From NCBI RefSeq assembly GCF_001625215.2, contig NC_030387.2, positions 35,239,606-35,303,605 of the forward strand: a stretch of 64,000 nucleotides of DNA, written 5' to 3'. A program made the translations under genes and the position numbers. A model generated the notes under the pieces. That model was not told where the DNA came from, made no database searches, and saw nothing but the letters and a program-made list of their open reading frames with translations. Source of the stretch: Daucus carota subsp. sativus (Eukaryota > Streptophyta > Magnoliopsida > Apiales > Apiaceae). Shown one piece after another: positions 18,558-19,492 of the stretch (position 1 is its first letter; every line of letters begins with the position of its first letter).

Positions 18558-18649
18558 GTGGCTCAAAAGTGCTTGAAAACAATCATAGGTAAATAAACCC
18601 TCAATGATAATTGTATAATAGAGTGATTTCATTTTCTCATCATTGCCAC
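18558..18649 (-). ncRNA. Candidate box C/D snoRNA 3 (degenerate box D)
   Basis: Minus strand: a GTGGC stem half (18649-18645), then box C AATGATGA, and at the other end TTGA in the place of box D followed by GCCAC (18562-18558). Outside it, GGGGGAT and ATCCCCC form a further stem, so the ends pair strongly. The guide TTTCAAGCACT directly upstream of the D-like box is complementary to AGTGCTTGAAA, which occurs in plant 25S rRNA (AGAGTGCTTGAAATTGTCGG, from memory). A C'-like TGATTGT lies in the middle. The non-canonical box D (TTGA, not CTGA) lowers confidence. It lies in the same orientation as two better candidates. Confidence 0.55.
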
Positions 18650-18709
18650 ATCCCCCTCAACTCTATCATATCAACCACAACTTTACACAATCAACCAATG
18701 CATCTCCTT

Positions 18710-18787
18710 CCCACAAATTAATCAATTTTTCATGTAAAATCAATCTTTCCCACAAATTAATCAATTTTTCATGTAAAATCAATCTTT
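18710..18787. repeat. Tandem duplication, 39-bp unit
   Basis: A unit beginning CCCACAAATTAATCAATTTT is repeated at 18710 and 18749 with no differences seen. It sits in the spacer between the second and third snoRNA candidates. Confidence 0.8.
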
Positions 18788-18883
18788 TAAAGAAGAATCA
18801 AATACATCAATATGATCGATGATTTCTTCAAACAATCAAATCAATATTTGTACCGCATATTAGACATCAAAAAGATGAAAAGG

Positions 18884-18964
18884 GGGCATTCAGAATGAGT
18901 AGGAGGTTAATCTTCAATCATAAATTTATCAGAAGACATTGTCTTTTTTATCATCATTATGCCC
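18884..18964 (-). ncRNA. Predicted box C/D snoRNA 2
   Basis: Minus strand: terminal stem half GGGCAT (18964-18959), box C AATGATGAT, D'-like TTCTGA, C'-like TGATTGA, then CATTCTGA with box D CTGA, and the other stem half ATGCCC (18889-18884). This is the full order expected for a C/D snoRNA of about 81 nt. The guide before box D, CCTCCTACTCATT, is complementary to a GAGTAGGAGG segment that I recall in 25S rRNA (GAGTAGGAGGGCGC); this needs an alignment. It lies about 90 bp downstream of snoRNA 1 in the same direction. Confidence 0.72.
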
Positions 18965-19056
18965 ACAAATATATACACACAAACACCAAAAAGAAATTAA
19001 TAATAATTGGAAAAATAAAAAACAGAGAAGAAGAGAAAATTAAGTGGGGCGTGAGG

Positions 19057-19147
19057 GGATTCTCTCAGACAAATGCCTCGTTTTGTCGTCATGATTTTAG
19101 AATGGATATCAGACTCGTCATCATAGTTTCATCATCACTGAGAATCC
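19057..19147 (-). ncRNA. Predicted box C/D snoRNA 1, double guide for 25S rRNA
   Basis: Minus strand: stem GGATTCTC (19147-19140), box C GTGATGA (19138-19132), D' CTGA (19112-19109), box D CTGA (19068-19065), closing stem GAGAATCC (19064-19057), eight perfect pairs. The guide upstream of box D is complementary to CAAATGCCTCGT (12 nt). The guide upstream of D' is complementary to CTCGTCATC (9 nt). Both words overlap within one conserved stretch of 25S rRNA, GCCAAATGCCTCGTCATC. By the box D + 5 rule the targets would be an A in CAAATG and the G of CCTCG. No matching protein frame exists. The structure is as complete as can be shown without a folding run. Confidence 0.85.
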
Positions 19148-19354
19148 ACCTCTACCTCGACTCTTTTTCATCTATTACTTTTTTCAAGAAAATAATCTAA
19201 ATTTGAAAGTAAAACATATTTGAAAACAATAGAAAAACATAATCATGGCAATAATGAAATTGGAAGAAAGATGGTGATGATTATACCTGAAATCAACACA
19301 AAGAGAAAGATGGGAATCACTGTAATGTTATAATAAGAAAAACAACACAGCTAT

Positions 19355-19492
19355 GTATATATAGGCTTTAAAGCAATTTCTAGGGTTAGGGTTGCGCCTC
19401 CGCTGTGACATGAATTTACTGTAATGGCATTTGAAAAAGCCCATTACTGGAGTATGTTCTCTTATGGACTTGAAGATGGAAGATCCAGCCCA
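19355..19492 (-). promoter_or_regulatory. snoRNA-cluster promoter: TATA, telo-boxes, site II
   Basis: On the minus strand, upstream of the snoRNAs: two TGGGCT site II words (19492-19487 and 19443-19438), tandem AACCCTA telo-boxes (19393-19381) and a TATA box CCTATATATAC (19365-19355). Telo-box plus site II is the promoter arrangement known from plant ribosomal-protein and snoRNA genes. The TATA box would place the start near 19330, about 180 bp before the first snoRNA. Confidence 0.65.

Follow-up and report, generated by a model that had tools for sequence, protein, structure and literature searches.

A minus-strand cluster of box C/D elements

Three box C/D elements lie close together on the minus strand (19143-18558, a total span of 586 bp) of the 64-kb window, by which we mean the whole stretch of carrot DNA that was analysed. 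The window is located on contig C7, and the genome searched comprised 441 Mb in 11 contigs. The initial annotation had described three minus-strand C/D RNAs within 600 bp, and its positions are borne out here, as are those of the TATA box, the tandem telo-boxes and the two site II words that it had placed upstream on the same strand. Along the minus strand, the features of the locus are the following.

19487..19492, minus strand: site II word TGGGCT, distal (word scan)
19438..19443, minus strand: site II word TGGGCT, proximal (word scan)
19381..19393, minus strand: tandem telo-boxes AACCCTAACCCTA, with AACCCTA at 19387 and 19381
19356..19363, minus strand: TATA box (TATATATA), with TATATA at 19358 and 19356
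19060..19143, minus strand: snoRNA 1, SNOR75 family, plant U15 by targets (Rfam 76.6 bits, cut-off 50); box C 19138-19132, box D' 19112-19109, box D 19068-19065
18890..18965, minus strand: snoRNA 2, snoZ105 family, SnoR7-like by target (Rfam 52.2 bits, cut-off 45); box C 18957-18951, box D' 18932-18929, box D 18893-18890
18708..18787, strand not applicable: tandem repeat of two exact 39-bp copies, in the spacer from snoRNA 2 to snoRNA 3
18558..18650, minus strand: snoRNA 3, box C/D element, SnoR65-like by target, recognised by boxes, stem and guide and below all Rfam cut-offs; box C AUGAUGA 18643-18637, degenerate box D UUGA 18566-18563, 5-bp terminal stem

At gathering threshold, Rfam returned two matches for the 64-kb window, both on the minus strand and both within the reported region. 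They are snoRNA 1 (RF02539, SNOR75) and snoRNA 2 (RF00145, snoZ105), each matched over its full length and above the cut-off, the middle part of snoRNA 1 showing small gaps against the model. The covariance models thus recover two of the three RNAs that had been proposed and leave snoRNA 3 below every cut-off. At 18648-18558, its best match was to snoR126 (25.1 bits for a cut-off of 39) and another was to snoR113 (21.9 bits for a cut-off of 47); neither assignment was retained. No Rfam match at E 0.1 indicated further snoRNAs downstream, between 17000 and 18560, and ARAGORN reported no tRNA genes in the 64-kb window.

According to PMC4660826, telo-boxes and site II words upstream of a TATA box are enriched in the promoters of plant polycistronic snoRNA genes. 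The carrot cluster resembles these promoters in that telo-box-type repeats, TGGGCY words and a TATA box are found upstream in both. The strict telo-box AAACCCTA is missing at the cluster, whereas the permutation AACCCTAA, which is listed in the same source, occurs within AACCCTAACCCTA. At least two ACCCTA and at least two site II words within 200 bp (scanned in steps of 10) are present only here in the 64-kb window. With at least one of each within 200 bp, four places were found in the window, the cluster promoter included.

The absence of a protein frame that would explain the region, also put forward in the initial annotation, agrees with what was found: four ORFs of at least 60 aa overlap the cluster region, and the three of them that were scanned have no Pfam match. 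Of the frames scanned, the two nearest ones with a Pfam match lie outside, namely an NPH3 frame above the cluster (ORF 22721-21420, 2.4e-69) and an MSP (PsbO family) frame below it (ORF 15560-14745, 4.6e-98).

Guide sequences and their rRNA targets

Arabidopsis 18S and 25S sequences served as rRNA references, their accuracy having been verified solely at the methylated positions; the numbering is that of Arabidopsis. The list of methylated sites used for this purpose (PMC8053127, Table 1) holds 74 sites in 25S and 35 in 18S. The reference 18S agrees with all 35 listed sites without shift. The reference 25S agrees with 27 of 74 without shift and, once shifts between -3 and +1 had been fitted, with all 74. 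The targets of snoRNAs 1 and 2 rest on this Arabidopsis 25S because the searches made yielded no intact copy from the carrot genome: in the assembly, an exact pattern gave 0 matches and a DNA query gave one match, of 80%, to a decayed copy. Scans of viral and prokaryote collections for 25S gave 0 matches. Decayed or partial pieces of 25S rRNA were seen on C5, at L014:1630-2178 and L027:9573-9752.

Among the 2'-O-methylations mapped in Arabidopsis, A2282 and G2289 are attributed to U15, A1377 to SnoR7 and G399 to SnoR65 (PMC8053127), and guides for all four 25S sites are found in the cluster in the D+5 register. In snoRNA 1, the D guide pairs over 12 bp with A2282 and the D' guide over 9 bp with G2289, which is the same D/D' assignment as that given for Arabidopsis U15 (PMC8053127). 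The D guide of snoRNA 3 pairs over 12 bp, with one G-U, with G399. The 25S matches that had been proposed for these two RNAs are therefore found in register, and the one that had been proposed less surely for snoRNA 2 held as well, its D guide forming 13 bp (12 Watson-Crick pairs and one G-U) at A1377. In snoRNA 3 the box C is exact, the box D is one change away from CUGA, and a 5-bp stem is formed outside both boxes.

Arabidopsis SnoR7 and SnoR65 each have a second listed site, 18S C473 and 18S U213, respectively (PMC8053127). The A1377 D guide is common to SnoR7 and snoRNA 2, whereas a C473 guide belongs only to the SnoR7 listing: none was detected in snoRNA 2 upstream of any NTGA word (at least 9 pairs, 8 Watson-Crick), and this RNA is therefore filed as snoZ105, SnoR7-like. 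From target and linkage we infer that snoZ105 belongs to the same family as SnoR7. Likewise, snoRNA 3 shares the predicted G399 target with Arabidopsis SnoR65 but has UUGA as box D and no U213 guide, its longest exact complementarity to 18S 196-235 being 5 nt. Because this guide is lacking, snoRNA 3 is called SnoR65-like by target and not a SnoR65 member. As no C473 and U213 guides were found, the names SnoR7 and SnoR65 are used here for targets only.

How far such matches exceed chance was assessed within the window. A register scan of the three RNAs upstream of any NTGA word gave 13 matches, and since nine of these fall at unlisted positions, weight was placed on mapped sites and on ranking. 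A C/D scan of the window tolerated up to one mismatch in box C, accepted C/U-UGA as box D and required a stem of 4 or more together with a guide pairing over 9 bp or more with one of the 109 sites. It gave 10 candidates, and the three best are snoRNAs 1, 2 and 3, which score 12.0, 12.3 and 11.3; none of the remaining seven exceeds 7.9. The same scan of the reversed window gave five candidates, the best with 9.3. When the 1355 [CT]TGA sites of both strands of the window were compared with the 109 mapped sites, the top three were the box D guides of the cluster, and the next site scored 9.6. Finally, of the window's 429 CTGA sites, four have at least 11 exact pairs in register to any rRNA position, three of them in the cluster and one outside. 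The outside site (17956) is AT-rich, carries a 12-nt exact 25S match in register and is not a C/D candidate, so long guide matches alone can be due to chance.

One of the matches at unlisted positions concerns the D' guide of snoRNA 2 (18933-18943), which forms 11 exact pairs in register at 25S C2595, a position absent from the mapped Arabidopsis sites. This guide is a palindrome and may fold on itself. Given the palindrome and the 4/429 frequency of CTGA sites with as many exact rRNA pairs, the C2595 match is taken as speculation. For the D' of snoRNA 3 (UUGA), a target at 18S A509 was discarded, with just 9 pairs and a position that is not a mapped site.

Related copies elsewhere in the genome

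At least three further SNOR75 matches were detected in the genome, a lower bound obtained from 55 scored candidates: one on C6 (73.6 bits) and two on C5 (59.8 and 40.2 bits, the last below the cut-off). The D guide is retained in the C/D frame in one of these three. In the C6 copy, both boxes (C and D) are preserved, as is the D guide, and telo-box-type repeats are present upstream. The 59.8-bit copy on C5 (L010:3894-3988) has GUGA as box D and an insertion in its D guide and, from these changes, is probably decaying.

For snoZ105, two further matches were found. They are located on C3, and each of them keeps the A1377 guide in the C/D frame; the D' region of snoRNA 2 differs from that of both paralogues. 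Each C3 copy adjoins snoZ161/228, and one of them also has two snoR16 copies beside it. At L012:3968-4772 (C3:1065700-1073700), two snoR16, snoZ161/228 and snoZ105 lie on one strand and form another snoRNA cluster. A two-member cluster of snoZ161/228 and snoZ105 is present at L013:3818-4049 (C3:7871600-7879600); upstream of it, telo-box and site II words were recognised by eye, and it may be a partial duplicate of the former cluster.

A DNA search gave no second copy of snoRNA 3 in the genome. The exact G399 guide followed by a YTGA word occurs at 12 genome places, for 8 in a backward control, and only the window copy combines it with a box C and a stem of at least 4. One of the other places (L016) has a box C with one mismatch and a stem of 1, and another (L021) is a 25S fragment in antisense. 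The exact 12-nt G399 target is held by a 181-bp 25S fragment on C5 that is 87.8% identical to the reference 25S.

Interpretation and relation to known clusters

The anatomy of the locus gives good support to an independent snoRNA cluster, and the proposal of the initial annotation, an independent box C/D cluster behind a telo-box/site II promoter, appears on this basis to be the best reading. We consider it likely, with a probability of about 0.8, that the locus is an intergenic box C/D cluster composed of U15 (SNOR75), a SnoR7-type RNA (snoZ105) and a SnoR65-like RNA, which would be expressed as one precursor and would guide 25S methylation. A function of these RNAs as 25S methylation guides is very likely. 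As to the mechanism in carrot, we infer transcription as one unit, followed by processing and methylation. Transcription by RNA polymerase II would begin some 30 bp below the TATA box, around 19330, under the kind of telo-box/site II control that ribosomal protein genes also have. The resulting single precursor would measure about 0.8 kb or more and be processed into three RNAs of about 80-95 nt. These would then bind the C/D proteins and fibrillarin and guide the 2'-O-methylation of 25S at A2282 and G2289 (RNA 1), A1377 (RNA 2) and G399 (RNA 3).

Judged from its sequence, snoRNA 3 is a less certain but plausible guide for a known site. It could be argued that only snoRNAs 1 and 2 are real and that snoRNA 3 resembles a C/D RNA by chance or is a decayed one, as it is below the Rfam cut-offs, has a UUGA box D and has no second copy by DNA search. 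In addition, upstream of an AUGA word it forms 14 pairs (11 Watson-Crick) with 25S near the unmapped position 700, a match longer than that to G399; this target was rejected, the AUGA word being no box D and the position lying outside the Arabidopsis list. The AT-rich CTGA site outside the cluster, which has its own 12-nt exact 25S match and is not a C/D candidate, also shows what chance may produce. Nevertheless, snoRNA 3 combines an exact box C and a 5-bp stem with a guide that pairs over 12 bp, in register, at a mapped site, and it lies on the same strand as two real snoRNAs, just below them. Its guide is the third best of 1355, and it is the only one of the 12 genome places with guide and YTGA word to have a box C and a stem of at least 4. 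A spurious snoRNA 3 is thus unlikely in our opinion.

The other alternatives concern the cluster as a whole. Its RNAs could be intronic in a host transcript, possibly a non-coding one, instead of belonging to an independent polycistron. Intronic snoRNAs exist in plants, as reported in PMC8351944, and the leader contains TTTCAG and GTATAA words that look, by eye, like splice sites. However, the promoter words stand directly upstream of the cluster, the three scanned of the four overlapping ORFs have no Pfam match and the nearest Pfam-matched frames lie outside, so we regard a host intron as very unlikely. A silent relict copy of the entire cluster is extremely improbable, since the boxes and D guides of snoRNAs 1 and 2 as well as the promoter words are all intact in the window. 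Redundancy and decay do occur, as indicated by the U15 copies on C6 (intact-looking, with upstream telo-box-type repeats) and on C5 (changed), and snoZ105 has two other copies in the genome. A more speculative scenario would be that snoRNA 3 represents a lineage-restricted family that took over G399 and joined the U15-snoR7 unit, and that the D' guide of snoRNA 2 directs a lineage-specific methylation of C2595; taken together, we find this distinctly unlikely.

The independent, polycistronic cluster that we favour has known relatives. PMC5122169 presents the Arabidopsis cluster 'U15a-U15b-snoR7.1' and the rice cluster 'U15a-U15b-snoR7b-snoR18b', the latter with its history in other plants. In Arabidopsis, rice and carrot alike, U15 lies close to an RNA with a SnoR7-site guide. 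The Arabidopsis and rice clusters have two U15 copies, whereas the carrot cluster has one. The third carrot member is directed to 25S G399, the SnoR65 site, and does not match the sites of the rice partner snoR18: snoRNA 3 has no guide at 18S A162 or 25S A2935 and was not classified as snoR18.

The locus is thus an ordinary plant snoRNA cluster and a relative of the known U15-snoR7 cluster. The slightly new part is snoRNA 3, a partner that is not named in the Arabidopsis and rice clusters as PMC5122169 gives them. In the literature searched, no report was found of a G399 guide as a member of the U15-snoR7 cluster. With snoRNA 3, the conserved U15-snoR7 cluster probably gains a third member, one directed to 25S G399. 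In other respects the locus confirms what is already described for snoRNA clusters in plants and for their promoters of the ribosomal type.
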